A stretch of 64,000 nt of DNA. Origin: Rheinheimera texasensis DSM 17496 (GTDB lineage: Bacteria; Pseudomonadota; Gammaproteobacteria; Enterobacterales; Alteromonadaceae). The stretch lies in contig NZ_JONU01000007.1 of assembly GCF_000711985.1 (NCBI RefSeq), positions 868,001 through 932,000 on the forward strand, written 5' to 3'. Of this stretch, positions 9,602 to 61,399 are shown piece after piece. Position 1 is the stretch's first letter; every line of letters starts with the position of its first letter. A program made the translations under genes and the position numbers. The notes under the pieces are model-generated. The model was given only the letters and a program-made list of their open reading frames with translations, searched no databases and had not been told where the DNA came from.

Positions 9602-11596
9602 TTAAGGTGCGACCGCTGGCGTTTCGCAGCGGTGCTCGCTTTTATACTTCCCTTCCCGATACAGATAAGATGGCAGCTGCACTTCGGCCAGCGCCTTTTC
9701 GTATTGCTGCCGGCTGGCTGGTAAATCACTCAGTTGCAGCGACTTTTTCGCCTCATCGTAGCTGCCGCGCACCACAGTGCCATCCGGTTTTAAGATGGTC
9801 AGGCCGTCTGGCTGCTTCAGCGCAAAGTATTGATCAAACTGAATAAGCGCCCGCCCCGGCGAGCTGTTATCGAGCGTCAGGTCACGGCCTGTCATCGGAT
9901 GGCAGCTGCTGACACCCAGCATCGACAATAGCGTCGGCGCTAAATCAATCTGACTGCTCAGTGTATCAATAGTGCCGGCTTTGGTATCAGCACCTAAAAT
10001 CAGGCCGGGAATGCGGAATTTCTCCACCGGAATGAGGTTAGAGCCGTATACGCGGTTGTCGTGATCAGCCACAATTAAAAACAAAGTATCCTGCCAATAA
10101 CTGCTGTTGCGGGCTTTTTTAAAGAACTGCCCCATCGCCCAATCAGCATATTTCACCGCATTATTGACGGAATTTTTTGGCTCTTCATGTAAATCAATCC
10201 GACCATCCGGGAATTCAAAAGGCTCATGGTTGCTCGACGTAAATACCAGGCTGAAAAACGGCTGACCGGACTGCTGACGCTGCTGCTGCAGCCGGGTTAG
10301 CTCCGCATCGGCTTTATCAAATAAATCCTCGTCACTGGCGCCCCAGCTGGCAACGAATTTCGGCTTTTTCATCTGGTTGATATCAACGATTTGGCTAAAG
10401 CCATTGCCGGTAAAATAACTGCGCATATTGTCAAAATGCGCTTCGCCGCCATAAATAAACTGGGTGTGAAAACCAGCCGCTTTGAGTACAGACGCCAGCG
10501 TGGTGAAATTTTGCTGGCTGTTGGACAGCTTCACTGTGCTTTGTGCCGGTGTTGGGGCAAAACCGGCGACCACAGCTTCAATACCCCGTACCGAACGGGT
10601 GCCGGTGGCATACAGCTGATTAAACCAGAGGCCTTGTGTTTTCAGCTGTTCTAACTCAGGCGTGACCGGCACGCCACCGAGCGACTCGACAAAAGTGGCG
10701 CCCATACTTTCCTGTAACACAATCACCAGGTTAAGCGGTTTATCGCGCTGCACTGTCGCCTGCTGCTTATGCCATGTCGGCATAGCAGGATCATTGAACT
10801 GATACTGTTTTAGCCAGGGCCAGTCCCGCGCCTGCTGTAGCATCGTTGCTTCATCAAGTTTGCCGTACATCTCGGTCGAACGCGCTTCGTGGCGCAGGCT
10901 GTAGATGGCATAAAGCACGGAATAACCGGAGCTGATAATCAACGAATTGACCATCGCATCGGGCGTAATCGCAAACAAAGCCGGATTGGCCGGTCTGTGC
11001 TGTGTGGTCGAGCGGATACTGATAAACACCAGCACCACCACCAGCGGCCAGGTCAGCCATAATTTTTTATTCGAGGTACAGCCCTGCTGCTGCGCCACAG
11101 CGCGAAAATGCCGGGCCGCCAGAACCACCAGCAGCACCGTCAAAGCAGTGCCTAGCAGCAGCGGCACCCGAAAGCCATGCCACAAAGTGCTGAATACTTC
11201 TTTCGGGTATTTCAGATATTCGACATACAAACGATTGGGCCGGATATCGTATTGGAGAATAAATGATGGCGTGGATAACTCGATAAAAATCAATAAGGTG
11301 AGCGCAAACAAACACCAGACATAACTAAAACGCCGCCAAAGGGCTTTAAATCGGGACAGCGCCAGCATCGGTGCCAGCAGGAGCGGGACCACCAGCAATA
11401 AACCGAGCAAAATCAGGTCGGCGCGTACGCCCTGCACTAACATCCAGAGCGGATTGCCGGCAGCTTGCACCCGGTCCCATTGCCACAGCATCAGCGCGAT
11501 ACGGCTAAGGGTTAAACCAGCCAACGCCAGCAGAATAAAATGGGTAAAAACCAGATAAGGGCCGCTGATCCGGCTGAATAAAGACTGTTGTGACAT
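9602..11596 (-). CDS. LTA synthase/EptA-type membrane sulfatase family protein
   Basis: About 664 residues: an N-terminal membrane part with five transmembrane helices (residues 10-220) and a C-terminal periplasmic sulfatase-fold domain. Family marks are LVIVLQESMGATFVESLGG (metal-binding Glu), YATGTRSVRGIEA with the nucleophilic Thr, and IVADHDNRVYG near the C-terminus. Such enzymes transfer phosphoglycerol or phosphoethanolamine to envelope glycans or lipids. The start at 11596 follows GCAGGG; an in-frame ATG 30 bases upstream lacks such a site. An OmpR-type box, the same one as before the hemolysin-family operon, sits 52 bases upstream of this start, so the neighbouring two-component system is its likely regulator. 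Confidence 0.85.
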   Translation of the reverse strand: MSQQSLFSRISGPYLVFTHFILLALAGLTLSRIALMLWQWDRVQAAGNPLWMLVQGVRADLILLGLLLVVPLLLAPMLALSRFKALWRRFSYVWCLFALTLLIFIELSTPSFILQYDIRPNRLYVEYLKYPKEVFSTLWHGFRVPLLLGTALTVLLVVLAARHFRAVAQQQGCTSNKKLWLTWPLVVVLVFISIRSTTQHRPANPALFAITPDAMVNSLIISSGYSVLYAIYSLRHEARSTEMYGKLDEATMLQQARDWPWLKQYQFNDPAMPTWHKQQATVQRDKPLNLVIVLQESMGATFVESLGGVPVTPELEQLKTQGLWFNQLYATGTRSVRGIEAVVAGFAPTPAQSTVKLSNSQQNFTTLASVLKAAGFHTQFIYGGEAHFDNMRSYFTGNGFSQIVDINQMKKPKFVASWGASDEDLFDKADAELTRLQQQRQQSGQPFFSLVFTSSNHEPFEFPDGRIDLHEEPKNSVNNAVKYADWAMGQFFKKARNSSYWQDTLFLIVADHDNRVYGSNLIPVEKFRIPGLILGADTKAGTIDTLSSQIDLAPTLLSMLGVSSCHPMTGRDLTLDNSSPGRALIQFDQYFALKQPDGLTILKPDGTVVRGSYDEAKKSLQLSDLPASRQQYEKALAEVQLPSYLYREGKYKSEHRCETPAVAP

Positions 11597-47323: not shown

Positions 47324-47468
47324 TGGGTTGACTCTGTTTTACTGATAAAGCTCAGCTAAGCGGTAATTTTTAAATTGCGGTTTTGCCTGACACTTTATGC
47401 ACACAAAAAACACGCAAATGCAACACAAAATAAACAACGTACGAAATGTGCGATGCGTCGGCGACTTA

Positions 47469-47984
47469 TCAGGTACCACTGCGCTCAAATGAAAAACCCG
47501 GCGGATACTGATGAAGCCCATCAAAGTCGCCTTTTGTCAGCGGTACGCCCCGAGACCGGGCAATGGCATACACCATCCCCACGTGGAAATAGAAATTTGG
47601 ATACGCAAAACGCATGAGAAAATCCTCTGCTTTCATTGAGATTGGCGCCGGGCCAGCCATATCTGCAATGACTACTTCGAGGTTGCTCTGCCTTTCATCC
47701 AAACTTGCCAGGTAGTGAAGTGTATCCTCAAGCTGAGCCCTTAAATTAATAAATGACTTCACCTCACGGCAGTACGAACTGACGTCTACACCCGCAATTG
47801 GACAACAGGACCTTAAGGCAAAACTGGCCACAATCTCGACTTGCACACATAAAGGGAACATATCGGGACTCAGTCTTTCGTGGAGTATATGTTCATCCCC
47901 GCCGACATGTTCCTCGACCTTGTTGAGTAAGCCCGAAAGTAAGCTTAAGTATTCAACAAAAATTGCAATATGTTTGTTTTTCAC
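47469..47984 (-). CDS. DUF1993 family protein
   Basis: 171 helical residues. FPLCVQVEIVASFALRSCCPIAGVD near 45 and RFAYPNFYFHVGMVYAIARSRGVPLTKGDFDGLH near the C-terminus are the DUF1993 blocks (DinB-like four-helix fold with possible metal-binding His). Function unknown. The start is a GTG with AAGG. It lies next to the left-most attC-like palindrome at 48.0 kb and may be a cassette. Confidence 0.82.
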   Translation of the reverse strand: MKNKHIAIFVEYLSLLSGLLNKVEEHVGGDEHILHERLSPDMFPLCVQVEIVASFALRSCCPIAGVDVSSYCREVKSFINLRAQLEDTLHYLASLDERQSNLEVVIADMAGPAPISMKAEDFLMRFAYPNFYFHVGMVYAIARSRGVPLTKGDFDGLHQYPPGFSFERSGT

Positions 47985-48015
47985 GACAGACCTTATCTAC
48001 ACCTGACGTTGTGTG

Positions 48016-48083
48016 CACAGTTGGCAATCTGCCTGCGGTTTGCCGCACGGGCCGCGAGCTGCGCAGCTTATTTGCGAACTGTG
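48016..48083. repeat. Possible degenerate attC site 1
   Basis: Inverted arms CACAGTT-GCAA and TTGC-AACTGTG enclose about 45 bases with further small hairpins (TGCGG/CCGCA). The size and position (downstream of the next gene, between two minus-strand genes) fit an attC site, but the flanking core 7-mers do not match the consensus. Confidence 0.4.
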
Positions 48084-48185
48084 TAGAAACTAAAGCCAAC
48101 CTTGCTATTTAAAAAGCAACAACAGCAATATTTACAATGACGTAATTGCCTTCTGATGTTTACAAACGATCAAATGATTTCAGCA

Positions 48186-48491
48186 TCAGTGCGTTTCAAA
48201 ATACTTTTTTAGCTCTTTGTAAAGAATCGCGCATTTGGGTGGCTCATCTATTTTGCCATCACGATCACAATCATATCCCGTAACTGTCACTAAACGACCG
48301 TTTCCAAATATATCGCGATCATCTTTTTCTATAGCTGTTACCTTTGGCGATTTTTTGATCCATTCAATATTTTCTTTAAACTGCAAAAATTCTGCTTTGT
48401 CAGTCACATTGATTAGTCTTTCAAAATCTACGTGCGCTTCACCAAAAACCTGAAAAGTTAACAAGCCTGACAAAATTAGAAATAATTTCAC
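48186..48491 (-). CDS. Small exported protein of the cassette array
   Basis: 101 residues with a signal peptide (MKLFLILSGLLTFQVFGEA). The mature part is Lys/Asp-rich (DRDIFGNGRLVTVTGYDCDRDGKIDEPP) with two Cys and a calcium-loop-like DCDRDGKID. No family recognised. The start is a GTG with a perfect GGAGG ribosome site, and this site lies right after an attC-type GTTAGCG core, so the gene's translation signals begin at the cassette edge. Confidence 0.6.
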   Translation of the reverse strand: MKLFLILSGLLTFQVFGEAHVDFERLINVTDKAEFLQFKENIEWIKKSPKVTAIEKDDRDIFGNGRLVTVTGYDCDRDGKIDEPPKCAILYKELKKYFETH

Positions 48492-48496
48492 GAGTC

Positions 48497-48562
48497 CTCC
48501 GCTAACGCCCGCACAATAGGCGAGCCATTTGTTTAAAGTACAGCGGACGTAAGCCGCGATGT
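48497..48562. repeat. Possible degenerate attC site 2
   Basis: A core CGCTAAC (minus strand GTTAGCG) stands at the boundary before the GTG-start gene, and GTTTAAC lies about 55 bases away. Internal arms pair poorly, so this site looks decayed or recombined. Confidence 0.4.
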
Positions 48563-48587
48563 TTAACACGATGGTTATGGCTGCAGA

Positions 48588-48959
48588 CTAAAACGGTGCA
48601 CATGTTGTCCCCTGATGGTAAATCATTTGCCACTGACCGCCCGCACTCCGACGCCAGATTGAACACCTGTGCGAATAAATTGGCGATGGATGATCAATTT
48701 TTAACATCTTCGCTTTGTATAACAACTGAGCACAGTCCAGGCTAAACATTCGTAATTCATAATTACTTGCGGTTATTTCAGGTGCAATCTCCGTTGGTAA
48801 ACGCTCCAACACATTTGCCTTGCCAAATCGCAAACCTGAAGCACCAATCTCAATAAAATCATCAGAGATTAGCTGAGCGAGTTCACTTGAAGAACTTCGA
48901 ACATCAGGCTGGAAAAGACGCTGCTCCAACCCGATTAATATTTGCTTCAAATCTTCCAT
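48588..48959 (-). CDS. DUF4440/NTF2-like protein
   Basis: 123 residues, start at 48959. The fold is that of SnoaL/NTF2-like DUF4440 proteins: LGLEQRLFQPDV-like first helix, LISDDFIEIGASGLRFGKANVLERL, then YRCSIWRR-like strand and WQMIYHQGTTCAPF at the end, which is the classic C-terminal signature. Function unknown, often small-molecule binding. A typical cassette gene. Confidence 0.8.
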   Translation of the reverse strand: MEDLKQILIGLEQRLFQPDVRSSSSELAQLISDDFIEIGASGLRFGKANVLERLPTEIAPEITASNYELRMFSLDCAQLLYKAKMLKIDHPSPIYSHRCSIWRRSAGGQWQMIYHQGTTCAPF

Positions 48960-48964
48960 AGAAG

Positions 48965-49046
48965 CTACGAAATGCCCAAACCTTGGCCGCCGCTGCGGCA
49001 ACAAACCGCAAAGTGCCGTACTTTGCCAGCCACATTTAACTTACTC
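48965..49046. repeat. Possible degenerate attC site 3
   Basis: Between two minus-strand genes lies a stretch with nested palindromes (CCGC/GCGG, AAAGTGCCGTACTTT) of attC size, but the 7-mer cores are not convincing. It may be a decayed attC. Confidence 0.3.
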
Positions 49047-49364
49047 TTAGCCAACGGCATACTTTTGCTTTGCATAGAAAAAGTAAACTAACGGCAATGA
49101 AGAAAAAATAAAAAATGAGACTAAAAACGACACTAGCCCTGTACCAGCGAAATAAACCAGACAGCCCGACAAGGCAACAAACACGCCTGACAAAATAAGG
49201 CCATTGCCAAATGTTCTGCAAAATTTACCAACATCAGCAATTTTACTGAAATCTACGCCATTGATGAGGTCTGATTTGTTTTTATAACCAATAAGAAAGC
49301 CGAGTAGAATAAAAACTACCCCAGTACTCAGGCAAATCAGAAGAATAAATAAACCTGTACTCAT
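49047..49364 (-). CDS. DUF3784-like small membrane protein
   Basis: 105 residues with three predicted transmembrane helices. STGLFILLICLSTGVVFILLGFLIGYKNKSDLINGVD with a following DFSKIADVGKFCRTFGNGLI resembles DUF3784 proteins. Function unknown. AGGAG stands before the ATG. It is followed (upstream side) by a clear attC site at 49381-49461. Confidence 0.75.
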   Translation of the reverse strand: MSTGLFILLICLSTGVVFILLGFLIGYKNKSDLINGVDFSKIADVGKFCRTFGNGLILSGVFVALSGCLVYFAGTGLVSFLVSFFIFSSLPLVYFFYAKQKYAVG

Positions 49365-49380
49365 AGCTACTCCTGTAAAT

Positions 49381-49461
49381 GGCTAACTATAAGCGCACGC
49401 GCGCGAACCTTGGTGAGCGTCGCTGCGCCCGCTGGCCGCAAAGTGTCGCGCCTTGTTAGCG
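49381..49461. repeat. attC site (integron cassette recombination site)
   Basis: 81 bases bounded by GGCTAAC and GTTAGCG. The arms GCTAAC...AAGCGC and GCGCCTT-GTTAGC pair with a bulged base; inner arms GCG-rich. It lies directly beside the ends of two minus-strand cassette genes. Confidence 0.8.
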
Positions 49462-49472
49462 AGCCATACATT

Positions 49473-50117
49473 TTAATAATTGGATGCTATAACTTTTGCA
49501 GCTTTTCTTTGTCCGGAAGAAAAAGTTACCGCAAATGTGACAAAGAAGCTCAATACAGACCACACATACAAATACATTGTCTCAAGAGTTTGCTTTCTAG
49601 TTTGATCAATTAAATTATTTGCCTTTGACGCGGTAATTTCTTTATCCTGATATTTTAATTTTTCCTCCGCTGTTGGAACGTAAACGACAAGACTATTCGT
49701 TTCATCTTTATAAATTATTGGTTGACCAAATTCGATATACATAACACTAGCTATAAGCTTTCTGTTATCTGAACTCTTGTTCTCTATTGCTTGCAGTGAC
49801 ATATTTTCTGGCATACTGGGAGTAGATGCAATTAACATTTTGGGCACAGATTGCAGCATATTGAAGCCAACCTTCATAAGGAAATTGTTAGCTAGAAAAA
49901 CGAAAAGGAATAAAAGGCAGTTGCCAAATTCTTTATCCTGAATATTATTTATCATTGCGGCTTGGATACTTTTGGCAAAACCGTAAGGTACTAAAATACT
50001 GAGCAGTAGAAAAGGCGGCCACTGAACATACCAAACAGAAAAAATGCTAGGCAATAATTTATTTCCCATCAATGGGATAATCCAAAGGAGCAGACAAACA
50101 ATCAGCAAAAATCTCAT
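49473..50117 (-). CDS. Four-helix membrane protein of the cassette array
   Basis: 214 residues with four predicted transmembrane helices (two near the N-terminus, one near 75 and one near 190). A central periplasmic or cytoplasmic domain with Ser/Asn/Lys-rich residues (SLQAIENKSSDNRKLIASV) and a coiled part follow. No family recognised. Low GC compared with the flanking core genes, as usual for cassette genes. The region upstream to the next gene is only 40 bases long. Confidence 0.65.
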   Translation of the reverse strand: MRFLLIVCLLLWIIPLMGNKLLPSIFSVWYVQWPPFLLLSILVPYGFAKSIQAAMINNIQDKEFGNCLLFLFVFLANNFLMKVGFNMLQSVPKMLIASTPSMPENMSLQAIENKSSDNRKLIASVMYIEFGQPIIYKDETNSLVVYVPTAEEKLKYQDKEITASKANNLIDQTRKQTLETMYLYVWSVLSFFVTFAVTFSSGQRKAAKVIASNY

Positions 50118-50157
50118 ACATACCTTTTAAAACTAACATCTCATGGCAGGGGATCGG
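50118..50157. repeat. Truncated attC-like junction
   Basis: Only about 40 bases separate two cassette genes. They contain CTAAC at one side and GGTTA at the other but no hairpin of attC length, so I read it as the remnant of a deleted attC or as a two-gene cassette. Confidence 0.3.
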
Positions 50158-50712
50158 TTACGGCGTCCTACTTGATTGACTCATTAAATCTTTCGTGAAG
50201 ATAGAAAAACCCTCAACGTCTTTCTTAGTGTTAAAGAAATTTTGATAAGGGAAGAGCTTATTTTTCAGAATTACAACATAGACAATAAGACAGGCATTGA
50301 TGATTACCCCCACCCAAACCGCCATAGGGTCGGCTTCGTACTCTTTGAATGAATCAAGGATACCCTTAAGAAGGAAAAAGCAAAGTACCAAATACCCCAT
50401 CGATTGTTTTTTATAAATGTAGTAAATAACTGCACCAGGTATCAATAGCGCAAAGGCCAAGACTGCAAACATTGCCCCTACAGGTAGCCCAGATAGAAAT
50501 GGCGATGCCCCAAGAACACCTAGCAAAACCAAAACAGAATATAAAGCAATCAAGATGTTATTGGCTCTGTTGTAGTTCTCAGACTCTTCGGCATCCGGGT
50601 ACATTGATAGATATTTCGAAACCTTTTTGGGATTTAGCCCTTCAGCTGAAGCCTTCTCGAAAATTGAATTCTTATTTTCGCCTTGCTTCAGAAGACGTTT
50701 CACTATCTTCAT
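50158..50712 (-). CDS. Membrane protein of the cassette array
   Basis: 184 residues from the ATG at 50712, which has AAGGAG; a longer frame would start within the attC site and is rejected. A charged N-terminal part (RLLKQGENKNSIFEKASAEGLNPKKVSKYLSMYPD), like a helical DNA- or protein-binding segment, precedes four to five transmembrane helices. No family recognised; AT-rich. Confidence 0.65.
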   Translation of the reverse strand: MKIVKRLLKQGENKNSIFEKASAEGLNPKKVSKYLSMYPDAEESENYNRANNILIALYSVLVLLGVLGASPFLSGLPVGAMFAVLAFALLIPGAVIYYIYKKQSMGYLVLCFFLLKGILDSFKEYEADPMAVWVGVIINACLIVYVVILKNKLFPYQNFFNTKKDVEGFSIFTKDLMSQSSRTP

Positions 50713-50727
50713 TGATACTCCTTGTAA

Positions 50728-50805
50728 ATTTAACGCCCCGCGCATACGCGCGAAATAATGAGCGTTACTGGCGCCGCAGGAACCCAATAACGCGGCTTGT
50801 TAGCT
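50728..50805. repeat. attC site (integron cassette recombination site)
   Basis: 78 bases bounded by ATTTAAC and GTTAGCT; arms TAACGCC-CGCG and CGCGGCTT-GTTA pair, with the inner palindrome CGCGCATACGCGCG. It ends seven bases before the AAGGAG site of the neighbouring gene. Confidence 0.8.
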
Positions 50806-50903
50806 TTGTTTATTTTGCGATAACTAAAGTTTTTAGCTGTCGCTGTGGCATCTTTTGCCATACATATACTCGAAAAAGCGAACTGCCTTTTTCTAATTTC
50901 CAT
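50730..50903 (-). CDS. Possible 57-residue cassette protein
   Basis: The only minus-strand frame in the short cassette between the two attC sites at 50.73 and 50.93 kb. It starts MEIRKRQFAFSSICMAKDAT and its second half is read through the attC site itself (PRYWVPAAPVTLIISRVCAGR). No good ribosome site is visible. It may be a real small protein or the cassette may be non-coding. Confidence 0.3.
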   Translation of the reverse strand: MEIRKRQFAFSSICMAKDATATAKNFSYRKINKANKPRYWVPAAPVTLIISRVCAGR

Positions 50904-50927
50904 TTACCCAGGGTGATTACTCCGAAA

Positions 50928-50999
50928 AGCTAACGACCATAGTTGCGGTGGCGAAACTGCTATGCAGTTTTGACGACCGACAGCCTGTGCTTGTTATAC
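50928..50999. repeat. attC site (integron cassette recombination site)
   Basis: 72 bases bounded by AGCTAAC and GTTATAC, with an inner hairpin AAACTGC-TA-TGCAGTTT. Its outer arms pair less well than in neighbouring sites. Confidence 0.7.
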
Positions 51000-51008
51000 C
51001 TCGTATGC

Positions 51009-51485
51009 TCAAACACTGCTCTGTTTCTTGGAGCGATGTGCAATTTTATTCTCATACGCGACCATCAATGCCTTCAGCTCCGTCGCTTCTTGCTCGTGGG
51101 CAGGATCACTCCATATCTGCTCATGCCGTCCATAGATCAAACGGAATTGCGTATCGGTGGTGAGAGCACCCTTTTGCCGCAATGCGACAATCTTCTCGAG
51201 TCTCTTAACCTGCAGGCTGTCTAAAGAAACTCTTAGTTTTTGCCTCAGATACTGATCTAATTCGCGTAATTCGTGGCCAGTAAGGTCTGATGTCATTTCC
51301 AATAGATCCTTTCTGGATTCTTTGAGACCAGCTAGATAAGAACTAGAAGGGTGGCGAGGCTCCTCGGTCTTCCGAATTGCCTCGGAAAGTTTAGGAACAT
51401 ACCGATCCATGAATTCTGCAAGCGCGAGTGTTTCGCGATAAACCGCTGACCATTCCTGTCGTTGCTTGTCAGTAAGTGGCTTCAT
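51009..51485 (-). CDS. Helical hypothetical protein of the cassette array
   Basis: 158 residues from the ATG at 51485 (AGGG eight bases before). Entirely helical and charged: LTDKQRQEWSAVYRETLALAEFMDRYVPKLSEAIRK and LTGHELRELDQYLRQKLRVSLDSLQVKRLEKIVALRQ, with likely coiled coils. No membrane segment, no signal peptide, no family recognised. Confidence 0.65.
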   Translation of the reverse strand: MKPLTDKQRQEWSAVYRETLALAEFMDRYVPKLSEAIRKTEEPRHPSSSYLAGLKESRKDLLEMTSDLTGHELRELDQYLRQKLRVSLDSLQVKRLEKIVALRQKGALTTDTQFRLIYGRHEQIWSDPAHEQEATELKALMVAYENKIAHRSKKQSSV

Positions 51486-51503
51486 GAGCAATCCCTGAAC
51501 GAG

Positions 51504-51580
51504 GTATAACGACAAGCTAAGCGGCAGCCGCTTGCGGCTGTCCCGTGCCGGCGGAGCCGGCCTTAAGCGTTTTGTTATGT
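51504..51580. repeat. attC site (integron cassette recombination site)
   Basis: 77 bases bounded by GTATAAC and GTTATGT. Arms AAGC-TTAAG-CGC and GCGTT-CTTAAG-like pair across two GC-rich inner hairpins (GCAGCCGC/GCGGCTG and GCCGGC/GCCGGC). The 3' end of the following cassette gene is encoded inside it. Confidence 0.82.
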
Positions 51581-51951
51581 GCTTGTTTTAAAAATTCATT
51601 GACAATATTACTTAGATCTATGTCCGTTAAGACACCACCGACTACTTTTTTCTGCATGTTCGGCTTAACAAATACATAGCCAAGTGAACTATCAAGACTA
51701 GATACATCAATAGAGATTTCATTGCCAAAGCATGTGTTACTTTTAATAGGGAGCTTTGTGTGAAAAGAACTTGAAACACCTTCGTTAGGTAGTCGCTTTT
51801 TAGTTTTATGGTAATAAAACTCATAGTCGGCTTTAGTTTCATATTCTATTGCGTTTTCATCTAGATTGTAGAAAAATATATGACCAACGCAGTTTTCTGC
51901 GCTGACTGATAATGAAAATATCAGAGTGAGGAAGATGAAGAAATTTCTCAT
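51517..51951 (-). CDS. Exported cassette protein with attC-encoded tail
   Basis: 144 residues with a signal peptide (MRNFFIFLTLIFSLSVSAEN). The mature part is about 110 residues with two Cys and beta-like character (CVGHIFFYNLDENAIEYETKADYEFYYHKTKK). The last 20 residues (from about HNKTLKAGS to QPQAAAA) are encoded by the attC site, so they are low-complexity. No family recognised. AAGG precedes the ATG. Confidence 0.65.
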   Translation of the reverse strand: MRNFFIFLTLIFSLSVSAENCVGHIFFYNLDENAIEYETKADYEFYYHKTKKRLPNEGVSSSFHTKLPIKSNTCFGNEISIDVSSLDSSLGYVFVKPNMQKKVVGGVLTDIDLSNIVNEFLKQAHNKTLKAGSAGTGQPQAAAA

Positions 51952-51966
51952 ACTAACCTTATTGGC

Positions 51967-52039
51967 ACATAACTGCCAAAGCAGCGGCGCGCGTTAGCGC
52001 GTCCAGCCCGCAGGGCGGTGCTGCCTTTGTTTGTTATGT
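51967..52039. repeat. attC site (integron cassette recombination site)
   Basis: 73 bases bounded by ACATAAC and GTTATGT. Arms AAAGCAGC and GCTGCCTTT pair; inner hairpins GCGCGCGTTAGCGCG and GCCCGCAGGGC follow. Confidence 0.85.
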
Positions 52040-52041
52040 GT

Positions 52042-52365
52042 TTACTTGATTGCATAGTTTTTATACTTAACAACAAATTCTTTTGCAGCTTCCAATGTTT
52101 CCGGGTATGGCACTGTTTCAATTGAGTTTTCTTTAATACAAATTTTCTGAAACCGAAACCCATGCTCGAATAGATACGTTATTTTTTGCCACAGCTTTAA
52201 ATCATTTTTTTTAGGGGCTTTAAAGTGCCGTCCAAAATTATGGGCGATTCCACCACACTCCGGACATTTAAGTTCTTTCGGATTTTCTTCCGCAAGATTG
52301 AACTCTCGTTTGAATGACTTTCTACAACTTAAACATGCAAATGCCATGTTGTATGGTGTCGGCAC
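52042..52365 (-). CDS. Zinc-ribbon-like cassette protein
   Basis: 107 residues. Two Cys pairs (FACLSCRKSF at about 9-18 and LKCPECGGIAHNFGRH at about 33-48) form a probable zinc ribbon. The rest is basic and helical. The GTG at 52365 follows AAGGGG and is preferred over the later ATG at 52347, which has no ribosome site. No family recognised; nucleic-acid binding is only a guess. Confidence 0.65.
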   Translation of the reverse strand: MPTPYNMAFACLSCRKSFKREFNLAEENPKELKCPECGGIAHNFGRHFKAPKKNDLKLWQKITYLFEHGFRFQKICIKENSIETVPYPETLEAAKEFVVKYKNYAIK

Positions 52366-52381
52366 GTGCTATCCCCTTTTC

Positions 52382-52453
52382 ACATAACGCCGCGCTCTGC
52401 GGAAATTTAGGAGCGCTAGCGAGTAAATTTTCCGTAGCAGCGCCTTGTTATGC
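52382..52453. repeat. attC site (integron cassette recombination site)
   Basis: 72 bases bounded by ACATAAC and GTTATGC, with long, nearly complementary arms (GCGCTCTGCGGAAATTTA and TAAATTTTCCG..AGCGC). One of the best-formed sites of the array. Confidence 0.87.
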
Positions 52454-52942
52454 ACTTTGCGCCACTTTGGTTGTATTGAAGCCTTCCTCGGGGGTGGGAG
52501 CCATAAAATACTTTGTAACCTGCTCAAACATATCTGGCGTATCAGTTGCCGCTCTTTCAGGCTGTTCTTCGCGCCGTTTTTCAATCTGTTTTAAACAGGC
52601 CTCATTTGACAAGTCGATGTATACCAAATTATGTGGAGCTTCAACCTCGGAGAAAATGCTCCGAAACCAATCTCTTTGTGACAGAGTATTTGCCGGGAAG
52701 TCCATTACCACATTAGACCCCGCAGACAATATGGATTGAACAAGCTTTTTAATCTGCGGCTTAAGTAGATTTGAATATTCGATATAGTCATTTAGTGATG
52801 AAATCTTATTTGGATAAAGTGACGCTAGCCATTCATCTTCTGAAAGCAATACTGCATTGTCTTTCTGTGCGATTTCGCTAGCTTTGGTAGATTTTCCTGC
52901 CCCCATTTTTCCACAGAAGAAGGTCAATGTTCCTTTGTTCAT
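52448..52942 (-). CDS. P-loop ATPase/kinase-like cassette protein
   Basis: 164 residues from the ATG at 52942 (AGGAG before it). Walker A motif FCGKMGAGKSTKASEIAQ at 8-25 and a strand NVVMDFPANTLSQRDW near 90 with an Asp that could serve as Walker B. Similar to AAA_33-type kinases that phosphorylate small molecules, or to zeta-toxin/chloramphenicol-phosphotransferase relatives. The longer frame upstream starts inside the next attC and is rejected. Confidence 0.75.
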   Translation of the reverse strand: MNKGTLTFFCGKMGAGKSTKASEIAQKDNAVLLSEDEWLASLYPNKISSLNDYIEYSNLLKPQIKKLVQSILSAGSNVVMDFPANTLSQRDWFRSIFSEVEAPHNLVYIDLSNEACLKQIEKRREEQPERAATDTPDMFEQVTKYFMAPTPEEGFNTTKVAQSA

Positions 52943-52960
52943 CTTTGCTCCTATTTTGAT

Positions 52961-53040
52961 GCATAACATATTAATCAACGGCAAAACGCACGCTTTAAAC
53001 CCTGCGCTATGCCTTTGATGTTTTTTAACATCAGTTAACA
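52961..53040. repeat. Terminal attC site of the array
   Basis: Bounded by GCATAAC on the left and GTTAACA on the right. Arms ATCAA-GGCA-CGCA and TGCG-TGCC-TTGAT pair well. It is the upstream-most site seen; the next 180 bases hold no cassette gene, no recognisable attI and no integrase gene. Confidence 0.65.
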
Positions 53041-53219
53041 CTACCGAAAAAAGCTACAGATCTCAATCTCTTTGCCGCGAGGCCACGCTTTGTAAAATCT
53101 GAAAGCGTGCATGGTGCCGCCTTTCGGATGCATCACCTTTTATTTACATTTTTCCGCCAGTGGGCTTGTACTGGGAAATTACTCAGGCTCTATTTTTTGT
53201 CGCAGCAATTTCAGCAGAA

Positions 53220-53696
53220 TCACATCCCCATGCCGGCAAATAACCTTGGGTTGTAGATATCGTGAAACACTTGTTCGAGGTGTAGCTGGCTGGCGTCTGG
53301 GTGGCTGGCGTTAAACAGCAGGATGCTGCCAAGGCCGGGCGGCACTGTGACGCTGGGCAGTTCCAGCGCAACTTTTGTTTGGCTGTGCAGCCAGTCGCTG
53401 CCGATTTGTTGAGTAGAAAGCGGATAAGGGAAAATGTCCCAGTCGGCGGGCAAAATACCGCTGAATGGTTCAATCAGGGCATCCGGTAACTGATATTGGC
53501 CGAGCCGGTAGCTTTTTGGGATAAAACGTGGCGATGGCAGATAGTTGGCGACTTCCAGCATGGCGACAGCGGCAGAACTGGCAAAATACAACACGCGTTG
53601 GCCCGGTTGATTCCAGCGGCCGCCGCTTTTAAAACTAGCGCCTTCGCCGCTGAAGTTCTGCAGGAAAGCTTCCGGGCAGATACGATACAGCTGCAT
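53220..53696 (-). CDS. RES-domain toxin
   Basis: 158 residues of the RES family, toxins that degrade NAD+ in the cytoplasm. LYRICPEAFLQNFSGEGASFKSGGRWNQPGQRVLYFASSAAVAMLEVANY carries the conserved Arg and Glu, and ILLFNASHPDASQLHL the late Ser. It starts at the stop base of the Xre-type antitoxin gene (one base overlap), the typical order for RES-Xre pairs. Stands directly beside the cassette array, where toxin-antitoxin pairs often stabilise the DNA. Confidence 0.88.
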   Translation of the reverse strand: MQLYRICPEAFLQNFSGEGASFKSGGRWNQPGQRVLYFASSAAVAMLEVANYLPSPRFIPKSYRLGQYQLPDALIEPFSGILPADWDIFPYPLSTQQIGSDWLHSQTKVALELPSVTVPPGLGSILLFNASHPDASQLHLEQVFHDIYNPRLFAGMGM

Positions 53697-54148
53697 CAGC
53701 TGAATTCACCAAATTCAATGGCTTGCAGCACGTCAGCCACCATTTTGCGGCCGACAAAACTGTCAAATAATGCGATGGGTTTGTCGCCGGACAAGGCCGG
53801 CATCGGGCTGTTCAGCCATTGGCGCGCCATGTCGGGACCAAACAGATTTTCAGCGCGACAAATCAGTTGCAGCATATCCAGCACCGGCTCGGCCTGGTGG
53901 CTGGGTAAAGTGCCTTTATACAGCCGGCTGATATTGGCGGCACTGATGGACAAGGCCACCACTAATACCGGTTTTAATTCGGGGAGCCACTGCAGCAAAG
54001 TTTTTACTTTGTCGCCGGACACGCCGTCGCGCACCAGCTGCAGATAACTGCGTTTATTTGCAAAGATTGTGGCAGAGACTGCACAGGCGTCAGAGACTGA
54101 CTGCTTATACAGCGTGGGGTTGGCGGCTTTATGGATAGAAGTTGTCAT
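53696..54148 (-). CDS. Xre/ParS-type antitoxin (DUF2384)
   Basis: 150 residues. The helical N-terminal part contains an Xre-like HTH region (LVVALSISAANISRLYKGTLPSHQAEPVLDMLQLI), and the C-terminal DUF2384 toxin-binding part shows ARQWLNSPMPALSGDKPIALFDSFVGRKMVADVLQAIEFG. It neutralises the RES toxin and probably represses the operon. GGAGG precedes the start. Confidence 0.9.
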   Translation of the reverse strand: MTTSIHKAANPTLYKQSVSDACAVSATIFANKRSYLQLVRDGVSGDKVKTLLQWLPELKPVLVVALSISAANISRLYKGTLPSHQAEPVLDMLQLICRAENLFGPDMARQWLNSPMPALSGDKPIALFDSFVGRKMVADVLQAIEFGEFS

Positions 54149-55103: not shown

Positions 55104-55283
55104 CTTCGTTGTATCACAGCAACAGAGAGAAATGGGGGCCTGTCAAGAAAGGTTAAATCTCATCACGGGATTGGTATTAATTCCGGGGAAAGGTCACCTG
55201 TCACTCCGCCCTAGTCAACGGCTGAGTCAACAAATATGGGCGGCTACAAGACCCGCCCCTACCGTTAAACATCACCCCATAAT

Positions 55284-55309
55284 AAAAAACCCGCCAAATG
55301 GCGGGTTTT
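55284..55309 (-). terminator. Terminator of the gcv operon
   Basis: AAAACCCGCC-AAAT-GGCGGGTTTT on the plus strand; on the minus strand the hairpin is followed by TTTTTTATT. It lies 37 bases after the gcvP stop and could also stop the HPP transcript. Confidence 0.85.
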
Positions 55310-55345
55310 CCTATCAATTTCAGAGTTTTACCTCAAAAATTTCTA

Positions 55346-58234
55346 TTACCGGTAATCTTCCGGGCTAGGACATGCACACATCAGGTTGCGGTCGCCGTAA
55401 ACGTCGTCGATACGTGTTACTGTTGGCCAGAACTTGTTGTCGGCAACGTACTGCGTTGGGAACGCAGCGTATTGACGGTCGTAGGCGCGGTCCCAGTTGG
55501 CGTCGAAAATGTCGGCCATAGTGTGCGGCGCGAAGTGCAGCGGGCTGTTGTCCGCGGTCCATTCGCCGGCTTCTACTTTGGCAATTTCTGCGCGGATAGA
55601 AGTCATGGCTTCGATGAACTTGTCCAGTTCCACTTTGGATTCTGATTCAGTTGGTTCAATCATCAGCGTACCAGCTACCGGGAATGACATAGTCGGGGCG
55701 TGGAAGCCGTAGTCCATCAGGCGTTTGGCGATGTCCATTTCGGTGACACCAGTCGCTTCTTTCAGTGGACGCATGTCGATAATACATTCGTGCGCCACAC
55801 GGCCGTTGGTGCCTTTGTACAGCACCGGGAACATCGGGTCCAGTTTGGCAGCCATGTAGTTGGCGTTCAGAATGGCCATTTCTGTCGCCTGACGTAAGCC
55901 ATCGCCGCCCATCATTTTGATGTACATCCAGCTGATTGGCAGAATGCCGGCACTGCCAAATGGCGCGGCCGATACTGCGCCGTTGTTCGCGCCGGTGTCT
56001 TCGATTTTCACTACTGCGTGGTTAGGCAGGAACGGGGCCAGCTGTTTTTTCACGCCGATTGGACCCATGCCCGGGCCGCCACCGCCGTGTGGAATACAGA
56101 AGGTTTTGTGCAGGTTTAAGTGCGATACGTCCGCACCGATAAAGCCTGGTGCTGTCACGCCCACTTGCGCGTTCATGTTGGCGCCGTCCATATAGACCTG
56201 GCCGCCATGCGCGTGGATGATGTCACACAGCTCACGAATGGATTCTTCAAATACACCGTGTGTGGACGGGTAAGTCACCATGATGGCTGCTAAGCGGTCT
56301 GACACAGCTTCGGCTTTAGCTTTTAAATCCGCCATGTCGATGTTGCCTGACTTGTCACAGTCGACCAGCACCACTTCGAAACTTGCCATCGCCGCTGTTG
56401 CCGGGTTAGTCCCGTGCGCAGATACCGGGATTAAACAGATGTTGCGGTGACCTTCGCCACGGCTTTCGTGGTATTTGCGGATCGCAATCATACCGGCGTA
56501 TTCGCCTTGTGCACCGGAGTTTGGCTGCATCGACATTTGGTCGTAGCCAGTGATGTTCACCAGCCAGTCGGCCAGTTCGCCAATCATCTGGTAATAACCT
56601 TCCGCCTGATTTTTTGGCACGAACGGGTGCAGTGCGCCAAATTCTGGCCAGGTCACCGGGATCATCTCAGCAGTGGCGTTTAACTTCATCGTGCACGAAC
56701 CTAATGAAATCATGGAGTGGTTCAGTGCTAAGTCTTTGTTCTCCAGCTTTTTGATATAACGCAGCATCTCAGTTTCGCTGTGATACTGGTTAAAGACCGG
56801 GTGCGTTAAGTACTTGGAAGTCCGCACTAAATCAGCCGGAATTGAGTTGGAGCCATTGGCGACGATAGCGGCGTCCAGCGCTGCTACGTCTAAACCATGG
56901 CCTTGGCCGAAGACGATATCAAACAGCTCAGCGATATCGGCAGCTGTAGTGGCTTCGCTGAAGCTGACGCCTAAAGTGTCGGCTAAATCAGTACGGAAGT
57001 TCACACCAGCGGCTTCAGCACGTGCAACCACTTCAGCACGGTTAGCCACGTTGAAAGTCACAGTGTCGAACCAGCTGTTGTGCTTCAGCGCAACGCCTTT
57101 GGCGGTTAAGCCAGCGGCGAATACGTCAGCAGAGCGGTGAATACGCTCAGCGATATTTTTCAGGCCAACCGGGCCGTGGTACACGCAGTAGAACGAAGCC
57201 ATGTTGGCCAGTAACACTTGTGCAGTACAGATGTTCGAGTTGGCTTTTTCACGGCGGATATGCTGTTCACGGGTTTGCATCGCCATACGCAATGCCTGAT
57301 TGCCACGGCGGTCTTTAGACACACCGATGATACGGCCTGGCATTGAACGTTTGTAATCGTCGCGCGTGGCGAAGAATGCTGAGTGTGGGCCACCGAAAGC
57401 CATTGGCACACCAAAACGCTGGGCAGAACCTAACACCACGTCTGCGCCTAATTCGCCCGGAGATTTTAACAACAGCAGTGCCATTGGGTCAGTCGCGACC
57501 GCAACTACAGCTTTTTTCGCTTTTAAATCAGCAATTAACTGCGCATCGTTACGTACTTCACCTGTGGTTGACGGGTATTGGATTAACGCACCGAATACGT
57601 CATGGTTCACGGCATCTGCCGCTTTACCGACGATGGTGTCAAAACCAAACATCTCGGCACGGGTGCGCACCACGTCGATGGTTTGCGGGTGCACGTCGTC
57701 AGCGATGAAATAAGTGTTGGATTTGTTTTTAGTGACGCGTTTGGCCAGTGCCATTGCTTCGGCAGCAGCGGTTGCTTCATCCAGCAGAGAGGCAGACGCC
57801 AGGTCCATGCCGGTTAAATCTAATGACACTTGTTGGAAATTCAGCAGCGCTTCTAAACGGCCCTGGGCAATTTCCGGCTGGTATGGCGTGTACGCAGTGT
57901 ACCAGCCCGGGTTTTCCAGCACGTTACGCAGGATCACGTTTGGCGTGTGCGTTGGGTGGTAGCCCATACCAATGTATGATTTGAAGATTTTGTTTTTGCT
58001 GGCAACCGCTTTTAAGTAAGCCAGGGCTTCCACTTCGTTAACAGCTTCGCCTGTCGCTAAAGGCGTGGTCAGACGGATGCCGGCCGGCACTGTCTGCGCG
58101 ATCAGCTCTTCGACGCTGCTGACACCTAATTCGGCCAGCATGGCCTGGGTCTGTTCAGCGTCCGGACCAATGTGGCGGGCGATAAATTCTTGATGATTCG
58201 CAAGTTGCGACAGGGTTTTGACTGAAGTGGTCAT
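55346..58234 (-). CDS. gcvP: Glycine dehydrogenase (decarboxylating), P protein
   Basis: 962 residues, full length for the homodimeric type. It decarboxylates glycine with pyridoxal phosphate and passes the aminomethyl group to GcvH. The PLP-binding Lys is in [20 protein letters not shown] (about 705), and [57 protein letters not shown] and [13 protein letters not shown] are the conserved blocks. It follows gcvH after 178 bases holding a hairpin. Confidence 0.97.
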
Positions 58235-58316
58235 GCCTGAGATTCCTGGTTGTGAACTTAAAAGCTGTTGTACGCAACCGGCCGCGATTGGGCCACCGGT
58301 TGCCGAAATTCAGTAG

Positions 58317-58389
58317 TGGCCAGCGTTGGCTGTCGCTGGCCACAAGGCTATGCCGGCCGCTAAATCAAAGCCCCGTAAAACGGGGCTTT
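58317..58389 (-). promoter_or_regulatory. Two hairpins between gcvH and gcvP
   Basis: A perfect AAAGCCCCG-TAAAA-CGGGGCTTT hairpin (58367-58389) without a strong T-run, and TGGCCAGCG...CGCTGGCCA (58317-58342). They may reduce read-through so that gcvP is made at a lower level than gcvH, or protect the gcvTH message end. Confidence 0.5.
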
Positions 58390-58412
58390 GCGGCGCTGGC
58401 TCTTCGCCTTGC

Positions 58413-58802
58413 TTATTCTTCGTCGATGGCGTTTTTGTAACCAGCGGCGTCTAACAGGCCGGCAACTTCGCTCTCGTCAGACGCTTTGATTTTGAACATC
58501 CAGCCGTCGGTGTATGGTGCGCTGTTAACCAGCTCTGGAGAATCGGTCAGTGCTTCGTTCACTTCAACGATTTCACCGGCGATTGGTGCGTAGATGTCAG
58601 AAGCAGCTTTCACTGATTCAGCAACTGCAACGTCGTCGCCCTGGGCTACAGAGTCGCCAACTTCTGGCAGCTCAACAAACACCATGTCACCCAGCAGGTC
58701 CTGAGCGTGCTCAGTAATACCTACGGTGTACACACCGTTGCCTTCACTGCGCAGCCACTCGTGAGAAGATGCATACTTTAATTCGGTAGGGATATTGCTC
58801 AT
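58413..58802 (-). CDS. gcvH: Glycine cleavage system H protein
   Basis: 129 residues. The lipoyl-bearing Lys65 is in [45 protein letters not shown] is the family N-terminus. It shuttles the aminomethyl group between GcvP, GcvT and lipoamide dehydrogenase. GAGGAA precedes the ATG; gcvT lies 70 bases upstream on the same strand. Confidence 0.97.
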
Positions 58803-58872
58803 TTATTTATTCCTCGGACCTAACTCGACGTTTTTTATTGAGTATTTGTGTAAAAATTCTGCAAAAGCCAGT

Positions 58873-59952
58873 TTAGACGACTTTTTTGCCCATGCGGACA
58901 AAAGACGGCTTCACCACTTTAACCGGGACTAATTTACCACGGATATCCACTTCAGCCGTGTCGCCGGTCGAAGCCGGGACCCGCGCCATCGCAATAGAAT
59001 ACCCTAAGGTTGGTGAGAAAGTACCAGAAGTGATTTCACCTTCGCCACCTTCGACAACCACGCGCTGACCATGACGTAACACACCTTTTTGTTCCATCAC
59101 CAGGCCGACCAGTTTGGCAGTACCAGCCGCTTTTTGTTGCTCAAGCGCTGCGCGGCCGATGAAGTTACGGTCGCTTGGTTCCCAGGCGATAGTCCAGCCC
59201 ATGTTGGCGGCTAATGGCGATACGGTTTCATCCATATCCTGGCCATACAGGTTCATGCCTGCTTCTAAACGTAAGGTATCACGTGCGCCTAAACCGGCTG
59301 GTTTTACCCCTGCATCTAACAGTTGTTGCCAGAAATCAGCAGCCTGGGCTTCTGGTACAGAAATCTCGTAACCGTCTTCACCGGTGTAACCCGTGGTGGC
59401 GATAAATAAATCACCGGCCTGCACACCAAAAAATGGTTTCATGCCAGCGACAGCAGCTTGTTGTTCAGCGGAAAGGATAGTGGCGACTTTGGCTTTGGCG
59501 TTCGGGCCTTGTACGGCGATCATCGCAAACTCAGGGCGCTCAGTGACGCTGACGTCAAAGGCTTTAGCTTGTGCGTTGATCCAGGCTAAGTCTTTTTCGC
59601 GGGTAGCAGAGTTCACCACCAAGCGGAAGAAATCTTCAGTCAGGAAATAAACAATGAGGTCGTCGATAACGCCGCCAGCTTCATTCAGCATGCCGCTGTA
59701 TAAGGCTTTGCCAGGGACTGTCAGTTTGGCCACGTCATTGGCCAATAAGAAACGCAGAAATTCGCGGGTGCGGCTGCCTTTGAGGTCAACGATGGTCATG
59801 TGTGACACATCAAACATACCGGCGTCCTGGCGCACGGCGTGGTGCTCTTCAATCTGTGAACCGTAGTGCAGCGGCATGTCCCAGCCGTGGAAATCGACGA
59901 CTTTCGCGCCAGCTTCAAGATGTTTTGCGTATAACACAGTTTGTTGAGCCAT
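58873..59952 (-). CDS. gcvT: Aminomethyltransferase (glycine cleavage T protein)
   Basis: 359 residues from the ATG at 59952, which has AGGAAAG; a longer frame upstream is not conserved. It moves the methylene group from GcvH to tetrahydrofolate, releasing ammonia. Blocks: [64 protein letters not shown] and MARVP near the end. First gene of gcvTHP. Confidence 0.96.
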
Positions 59953-60076
59953 CAGTACTTTCCTCTGGAGCCGGTACATAGCCGGCATGCTGGGTATAAA
60001 CCTGTAAGGGCAGAAAGTGACACAGTCCGTCGGGCGGATGCCGTTATAACCGACTGGCCACCAAAAGATGGCCCGG

Positions 60077-60082
60077 ATTATA
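60077..60082 (-). promoter_or_regulatory. Possible -10 element of the gcv operon promoter
   Basis: On the minus strand TATAAT lies about 125 bases upstream of gcvT, preceded by a TTGAGG at slightly short spacing (14). The leader between it and gcvT does not show the conserved glycine-riboswitch sequence. Confidence 0.35.
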
Positions 60083-60169
60083 ACCGATGGGTTTCGCCTC
60101 AAATAGCCCCTTTTCGATTAGATTTAATAATCCGAAAACAGGCGCTATGACCGCCCTCACCGTTCAACA

Positions 60170-61399
60170 TTACAGCGAGATGACGCCAGGCCGCGCCACA
60201 GCTGGTAAATCGCCCTGATTACCCAACGCTGCTGCCAGCAGCTGCCGCTTCACCGGTGCCAATTGATTAGTGGCCGCCATACCAACAGCTCGTACCAGCT
60301 TGGCCAATGGATGCTGCAACATAAAGCCGCGTTTAAAGGCTTCCATCAACGCAATCATCTGTTGCGCCTCAGCTTTTCGCCAGCGTTCGTATTGCCGCAG
60401 CATGCGCTGCTCATTACAGGTTCGACCAGTGCTGATATTTTGTACTATTAGTTCTGCTAATGCACAAGCATCCATCAGACCAAGGTTCATGCCCTGCCCG
60501 GCGAGCGGATGAATAGTATGCGCCGCGTCGGCCACTAACACGGCATTGTGCTTCTGCCATTGACTGGCATAACGCATTTTGAGTGGATAACTACGTCGTT
60601 CAGTTTGCACGTTAAGCACACCGAGCACCGACTGACTGGCCGCCGTCAGCGCCTGATTAAATTGATCTGCAGGCATAGCAATCAGCTCAGCTGCACGTTC
60701 CGGCGCCACGCTCCAGACGATAGACACTAAATGCGGGTCGACCAAAGGCAACAAAGCCAAAGGCCCGGTTGGTAAAAACACCTGGCGCGCAGTGGCCTGA
60801 TGCGGCTCACTGGTGCGTACCACAGCGACTAGACCATGATGGTCATAATCCCAAAACGCCAATGGCATTTTTAACTGCTCACGCACCATCGAATTGGCGC
60901 CGTCAGCACCGACCAGCAACTTGCTGATATAAGCGCTGCCGTCGGCCAGCGTCAGCAGATTCTGCCGCTCACTGGCACTGATTTGCTGGATGCGCGCGTC
61001 AAACTTCCACTGGATGTTCGGATATTGCAGCGCACGCTGATACAAGCAAGCCCGCAGCTCTTCGTTATCGACTATCCAGCCAAGTGCCGGGGTCTGGGCG
61101 AGCGCGCCTAAATCAGTGGTGGCAAATTCAATGCGGGCAAAGCTGTCCGCTTCCCATACTTGCATCTGCTGATAGGCCGGTTTGGCAGTTAACAGCTGCC
61201 AGACGCCAAGACTATCAAGCACCCGCTGCGACGCCAGATTCAGCGCACTGACGCGGTTGAGCTGTGCCGGTCCTGCAACAGGCGCCGGACCTTGTTCCAG
61301 CACTGTGATTGGTAAATCCGGGCAGTTTTTGGCAAGCAATAACGCCAACGTCAGGCCGGCACTGCCTGCACCGGTGATCAGAATATCGGTATCTAACAT
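60170..61399 (-). CDS. ubiI: 2-octaprenylphenol hydroxylase UbiI-like FAD monooxygenase
   Basis: 409 residues from the ATG at 61399, whose protein starts directly with the FAD motif DILITGAGSAGLTLALLLA. The second motif VADAAHTIHPLAGQGMNLGLMDACALAE near 280 and LVGADGANSMVREQL complete the ubiquinone-hydroxylase family. It hydroxylates the ring in aerobic ubiquinone synthesis (C5 in UbiI/VisC). It overlaps ubiH by seven bases, the usual pepP-ubiH-ubiI order, so I chose ubiI over ubiF. Confidence 0.85.
   Translation of the reverse strand: MLDTDILITGAGSAGLTLALLLAKNCPDLPITVLEQGPAPVAGPAQLNRVSALNLASQRVLDSLGVWQLLTAKPAYQQMQVWEADSFARIEFATTDLGALAQTPALGWIVDNEELRACLYQRALQYPNIQWKFDARIQQISASERQNLLTLADGSAYISKLLVGADGANSMVREQLKMPLAFWDYDHHGLVAVVRTSEPHQATARQVFLPTGPLALLPLVDPHLVSIVWSVAPERAAELIAMPADQFNQALTAASQSVLGVLNVQTERRSYPLKMRYASQWQKHNAVLVADAAHTIHPLAGQGMNLGLMDACALAELIVQNISTGRTCNEQRMLRQYERWRKAEAQQMIALMEAFKRGFMLQHPLAKLVRAVGMAATNQLAPVKRQLLAAALGNQGDLPAVARPGVISL

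Follow-up and report, generated by a model that had tools for sequence, protein, structure and literature searches.

Sedentary chromosomal integrons, such as those of Xanthomonas, Shewanella and Vibrio, consist of an integrase gene of the TIGR02249 family (intI), a recombination site (attI) and an array of cassettes that end in attC sites and have mostly unknown products. In the usual form there is one attI, and it lies beside intI. Arrays of attC cassettes with no intI nearby are known as clusters of attC sites lacking integron-integrases (CALINs) and have been described at loci apart from intI (PMC12444791, PMC9229058, both available in part). In Xanthomonas, such arrays recur at conserved loci away from the intI locus while intI is kept in the genome; in the available passages of PMC12444791, no attI is reported at them, and trans mobilisation of CALINs is stated to be possible. 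The present analysis concerns a stretch of 64,000 nucleotides of Rheinheimera texasensis DSM 17496, referred to here as the window (contig C5, positions 868001-932000; the genome spans 4.59 Mb and 12 contigs), and the cassette array that it carries. This array has at least two attC sites and no intI nearby, as in a CALIN. Whereas CALINs are defined by attC sites and the lack of intI, this array is headed by an attI paralogous to that of the genome's own integrase, and the same kind of attI recurs at other loci. In contrast to the usual chromosomal integron, several attI copies lie far from a single intI.

Displacement of attI is not without precedent. Attachment sites resembling attI have been described as secondary sites (PMC10127599, available in part), and cassettes of mobile integrons carrying a truncated attI, out of its usual place and recombined by IntI1, appear in the accessible part of PMC12901181. 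In the latter case the attI piece substitutes for attC at a cassette end inside an integron, whereas the copies considered here head separate chromosomal arrays. No report of dispersed attI copies was found in the literature searched by title and abstract opening, subscription papers being mostly outside reach. The array in the window is probably, at roughly 0.7, a satellite platform within a chromosomal integron distributed over several loci, in which a remote integrase would act in trans on the orphan attI platforms.

Between 48.0 and 52.97 kb, the minus strand of the window is an integron cassette array. GC content falls to 38-44% at 48-53 kb, compared with 46-50% directly left of the array and 52-53% towards gcvP, and the trough is occupied by small minus-strand open reading frames (ORFs) with palindromes between them. 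An original prediction, made on the letters alone, had read this alternation as integron cassettes and had proposed attC covariance models as a check. Three such models were home-built: R1 from 15 attC of this genome, six of them from the window; R2 from 116 R1 hits (E<=5) at 44 loci; and R3 from 20 attC. Since the R3 training sites come exclusively from other genomes, this model is a fair test here. It gave seven hits in the window, all on the minus strand at 48.0-52.5 kb, and left the rest of the 64 kb empty at E<=1. Five of these had E<0.01 (at 49381, 50728, 51967, 48500 and 52382), those at 51504 (E 0.03) and 48023 (E 0.17) being weaker. Over eight stretches of the genome (204 kb), R3 yielded 19 hits at E<=1, nine of which fell in the array beside intI on contig C4, seven in the window and one each in loci L015, L016 and L158; none fell in L007, L014 or L017 at that threshold. 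Together with units common to other arrays, these hits establish same-orientation cassettes ending in attC, as had been predicted. The elements of the locus, from gcvP leftwards, are as follows.

gcvP: 55346-58234, minus strand; flank of the locus.
RES (53220-53696) and Xre (53696-54148): 53220-54148, minus strand; PF08808 and PF09722; in the position held by intI in two relatives (G004 and G008).
Orphan attI with its upstream (promoter-side) region: 52964-53118, minus strand; crossover T|AAC at 52964-52967, cassettes to the left.
Cassette 1: 52385-52966, minus strand; AAA_33 P-loop kinase-like ORF at about 52448-52942 (PF13671, 87 bits); attC 52382-52453, R3 E 0.0079.
Cassette 2: 51970-52384, minus strand; weak zinc-ribbon ORF 52042-52365 (below cut-offs); attC 51967-52039, R3 E 1.1e-6.
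Cassette 3: 51507-51969, minus strand; ORF 51517-51951 with no Pfam match at E<=0.01; attC 51504-51580, R3 E 0.03.
Cassette 4: 50931-51506, minus strand; ORF 51009-51515 (start uncertain) with no Pfam match; attC 50928-50999, R1 E 1.7e-4, no R3 hit.
Cassette 5: 50731-50930, minus strand; short, with no minus-strand ORF of at least 60 aa confined to it; attC 50728-50805, R3 E 1.7e-13.
Cassette 6: 49384-50730, minus strand; ORFs 50158-50715 and 49473-50117 with no Pfam match; attC 49381-49461, R3 E 1.6e-20.
Cassette 7: 48979-49387, minus strand; DUF3784-like ORF 49047-49364 (below the Pfam cut-off); attC degenerate.
Cassette 8: 48500-48981, minus strand; DUF4440 ORF 48588-48962 (PF14534, 52 bits); attC 48500-48580, R3 E 1.4e-6.
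Cassette 9: 48009-48502, minus strand; ORF 48186-48569 (start uncertain); weak attC at about 48023-48076, R3 E 0.17.
Distal cassette: 47461-48008, minus strand; DUF1993 ORF 47469-47984 (PF09351, 118 bits); own attC lost or unrecognised.

Five of the six clean palindromes originally listed as attC were recovered by R3, but the sixth, at 50928-50999, was detected solely by R1 and R2, which were both trained on it. Two attC-like sites, 48500-48580 and the weak 48023-48076, come in addition to that list. The predicted limits of about 48.0 to 53 kb enclose a real array, which also takes in, on its left, the DUF1993 unit at 47461-48008. The core pair RYYYAAC/GTTRRRY, by which the sites had been marked, did not hold up: a strict scan of the 64 kb found 10 such pairs, the sole one past the pairing filter lies at 40292, outside the array, and the cores here are mostly YTAACA...GTTA. 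This strict core scan and two looser hairpin scans were dropped as too strict or too unspecific, and the covariance models were used instead. The position of the palindromes at gene 3' ends would also suit ordinary transcription terminators. This explanation can scarcely be credited and was rejected, because R3, built from the attC of other genomes, matches the array alone within the window and because units shared with other arrays end at crossover triplets. An Rfam search of 44-58 kb returned nothing above the gathering score, and no tRNA genes were found in the window. Among the cassette products, AAA_33, DUF4440 and DUF1993 alone pass Pfam cut-offs, all others being sub-threshold or matchless; defence and NCBIfam scans gave nothing above a curated cut-off among the window cassettes scanned.

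The palindrome at 52961-53040, previously counted as a less clean seventh attC-type site, is by its homology an attI and not an attC. Over 155 bp, positions 52964-53118 have 90% identity with the C4 stretch between the cassette array and intI, a dyad within attI was predicted by folding and then aligned, and cassette 1 starts exactly at the crossover T|AAC. The array is consequently headed by an attI, which has orthologues in the relatives G017 and G010. Insertion of cassettes at a non-attI site (attG), or dispersal of cassettes, is a further route to a CALIN. Insertion at attG is described in the available part of PMC12444791 and CALINs in general could be so explained, but for an array whose head so closely resembles the attI region beside the C4 intI this origin is very improbable, and an attG-only origin was rejected because attI is present at the array head.

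No intI lies in the window, and the place adjoining attI is taken by the RES-Xre pair, whose presence beyond the first cassette had been correctly recognised. The search for intI elsewhere, which had been recommended, located one gene above the family cut-off in the genome, at C4:938099-939043, an open frame without stops with its own attI and array alongside. Its product scores 465 bits to TIGR02249 (cut-off 265), and residues 4-322 align with residues 1-319 of the solved IntI4 structure 2a3v. As intI sits on a different contig, the locus in the window, taken by itself, falls short of a complete integron. The IntI protein matched only two intact-intI loci in a search of 35 loci (next best E 2.4), so that no intI remnant is recognisable at the orphan attI sites. 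The prediction of an array without a visible integrase was thus right for the window and for the surroundings of attI, but an intact intI exists on C4; likewise, the term CALIN-like fits an attC array without intI nearby but passes over the attI at its head, which is homologous to the one beside the single intI. Several related loci have a LexA-like box (CTGT...ACAG) upstream of their intI which, by eye, is absent from the approximately 60 bases before this genome's intI (L001).

The history of the gcvP locus can be followed in relatives. In G004 and G008, intI lies directly beyond gcvP, encoding proteins with 77% and 44% identity, respectively, to the C4 IntI; the genes are at L051 9318-10283 (G004) and L048 9821-10762 (G008). 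Two very different IntI at one position make this flank appear a recurrent integron site. In R. texasensis and G017, RES-Xre occupies the intI position. The locus may formerly have been a complete integron that lost intI, where RES-Xre now stands, and retained attI; the RES-Xre pair may contribute to maintenance of the locus. The comparison with related strains suggested by the original prediction proved informative: G017 aligns with 47367-48008, 52964-53119, 53224-54099 and 55227-60823 of the window, and between 48008 and 52964 there is no match of at least 100 bp, the interval in G017 holding different ORFs and four R1 attC hits. G010 shares 52964-54097 with the window and has different DNA on both sides. 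In both genomes, homology to the window ends at T|AAC. The distal DUF1993 unit is found in G017 and, with an attC hit on either side, in the array beside the intI of G007. If cassettes enter at attI, a distal cassette should be retained while the proximal ones are replaced, as seen here, and arrays replaced with breaks at the crossover point, at most indirectly, to IntI-dependent recombination at the window attI. The remote IntI would act in trans at orphan attI sites, inserting and excising cassettes at that of the window, and the newest cassettes would be those nearest attI. The attI/RES-Xre block of G010 (L038, C71:150000-167342) is flanked by DNA found at three other places in the R. texasensis genome, which indicates rearrangement breaks near these arrays, G010 being a draft of 140 contigs.

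The same locus invites the view that a complete gcvP integron simply lost intI, leaving a passive array and a disused attI, with the differences between species older than the loss. The intI at gcvP in G004 and G008 and the degeneracy of some attC (48023, 48979) agree with it, as does the genome G020, which retains attI matches and has no intI match. This explanation is nevertheless unlikely. The intI-less RES-Xre/attI layout is common to this genome and G017 (the block also to G010), so that, on the simplest reading, the loss of intI is older than the array differences. Moreover, the crossover-adjacent box of attI is the most conserved part of the five copies in this genome that were aligned: 13 of its 14 columns are invariant, compared with 21 of 45 in the adjoining part and 19 of 105 further on, and no other 14-column stretch of the alignment scores higher.

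Searching the genome for the window attI yields these five copies, itself included. The match beside intI (C4:937864) has 90% identity, that at C5:960190 has 80% over about 150 bp, and those at C4:996727 and C4:433402 have 80-81% over 52-63 bp. Outside these five matches, a decayed sixth copy lies at L158 12847 (C4, about 422.8 kb); its core box occurs once in 20 kb where 0.03 would be expected, and the best of its local alignments with other attI regions has E 1.2e-4, compared with a best of 0.055 in random controls (up to 40 windows). The segment L158 11570-12860 (C4:421.5-422.9 kb) is a small attC cluster with this decayed attI-like start. An R1 scan of the genome, in which 150 of 1484 first-look candidates were scored, placed 20 attC hits at E<=1, all adjoining the six attI sites: C4:931-938k has nine of them, the window six and C4:996k two, with one each at C4:433k, C5:960k and C4:421k. 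Fifteen are training sites of R1, and five are new (C4:432748, C5:960777, C4:421569, C4:935322 and C4:931383). Each orphan attI copy in this genome is followed by attC-bearing DNA in the correct orientation. The orphan array at C4:996k includes a cassette (L015 10701-11132) coding for a BrnT-family toxin-like protein (PF04365). The right flanks of C4:996k and C5:960k have no clean empty site among the relatives.

Across 22 Rheinheimera genomes, an intI match at E<=1e-30 occurs in 18, with a maximum of two per genome. The window attI matches six of the 22, the attI of the G016 intI matches 16, and the two combined match 19. In all 19 of these, attI matches outnumber intI matches, with as many as 13 per genome, these figures being match counts rather than verified sites because some matches are partial. 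For all eight orphan attI detected in relatives with the window query, R1 places an attC (E<=0.01) on the side and strand of the crossover; on the opposite side of these eight loci it places none at that threshold. In neighbouring lineages, one cross-species attI query matched 13 of 16 genomes, never more than four times.

Such numbers raise the question of whether attI spreads as a small mobile or repeat-like element around which cassettes gather afterwards, so that its multiplication, and not the integrase, drives dispersal. The many copies per genome fit this idea. So does C4:433k, where about 1.65 kb of cassette DNA, attI and a dispersed hairpin repeat stand between two genes as a unit that is absent from G010; the corresponding gap is about 90 bp there and about 880 bp, unrelated, in G017, and the unit may have been gained here or lost elsewhere. 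In G020 and G002, many orphan copies have 200-290 bp in common, which also agrees with a mobile attI. This possibility is improbable all the same, since terminal repeats or target duplications were not recognised and these orphan copies of the two genomes, by eye, carry a degenerate LexA-like stretch where intI loci carry one, which favours their descent from intI-bearing copies. The dispersed hairpin repeat stands upstream of two orphan attI sites (L016 10654-10772 and L014, about 9870-10060), with further matches elsewhere in relatives.

Exchange between platforms was assessed by comparing 33 array regions for matches of at least 170 bp. One cassette of G010 is present in both its intI array and its orphan attI array (349 bp, 92%). 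Window cassette 1, both ends of which are at crossover triplets, has a 94% match within an orphan array in G016, the orphan cassette of C4:433k occurs in the intI array of G016 (92.5%), and window cassette 7 is found in another G016 array, on C33 (85%). A cassette in which no gene was recognised, about 350 bp long, stands twice in the C4 intI array (L006 16233-16596 and 17505-17867) and also in both G010 arrays (L037 12287-12635 and L038 9989-10339), with partial matches in G017.

Several observations weigh against service of the orphan platforms by a remote integrase. In R. texasensis itself, no stretch of at least 170 bp is common to the intI array and the orphan arrays, a result that speaks against ready exchange in this genome. 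G020, a complete genome in one contig, has 12 attI matches (L057-L068) and no intI match at E<=1e-30, and it seems to be a genome that has lost its integrase. An R1 attC hit (E<=0.01) within 2 kb of an attI match was found for two of 12 matches in G020 and two of four in G002. No sigma-70-like promoter that could serve as cassette promoter (Pc) was detected by a simple scan of 52900-53260. Finally, the turnover of arrays could stem from integrase copies since lost or from homologous exchange.

The window shows that a cluster of the CALIN type can sit on a paralogous attI, which bears on the origin of CALINs. The chances are about even that Rheinheimera has a poly-attI integron, in which a single integrase, acting in trans, supplies cassettes to several dispersed attI platforms and shuffles them from one to another, the platforms themselves being duplicated, acquired and retained without regard to intI. 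In other bacteria, some CALINs may also be headed by attI and have been overlooked, as few attI are recognisable. If the sites are served in trans, trans mobilisation would become directly testable on natural sites, and a simple re-screen would consist of comparing the attI of each genome's own intI with the sequence beside its CALINs. An integron would then have to be counted as a set of loci that share one enzyme rather than as a single locus.

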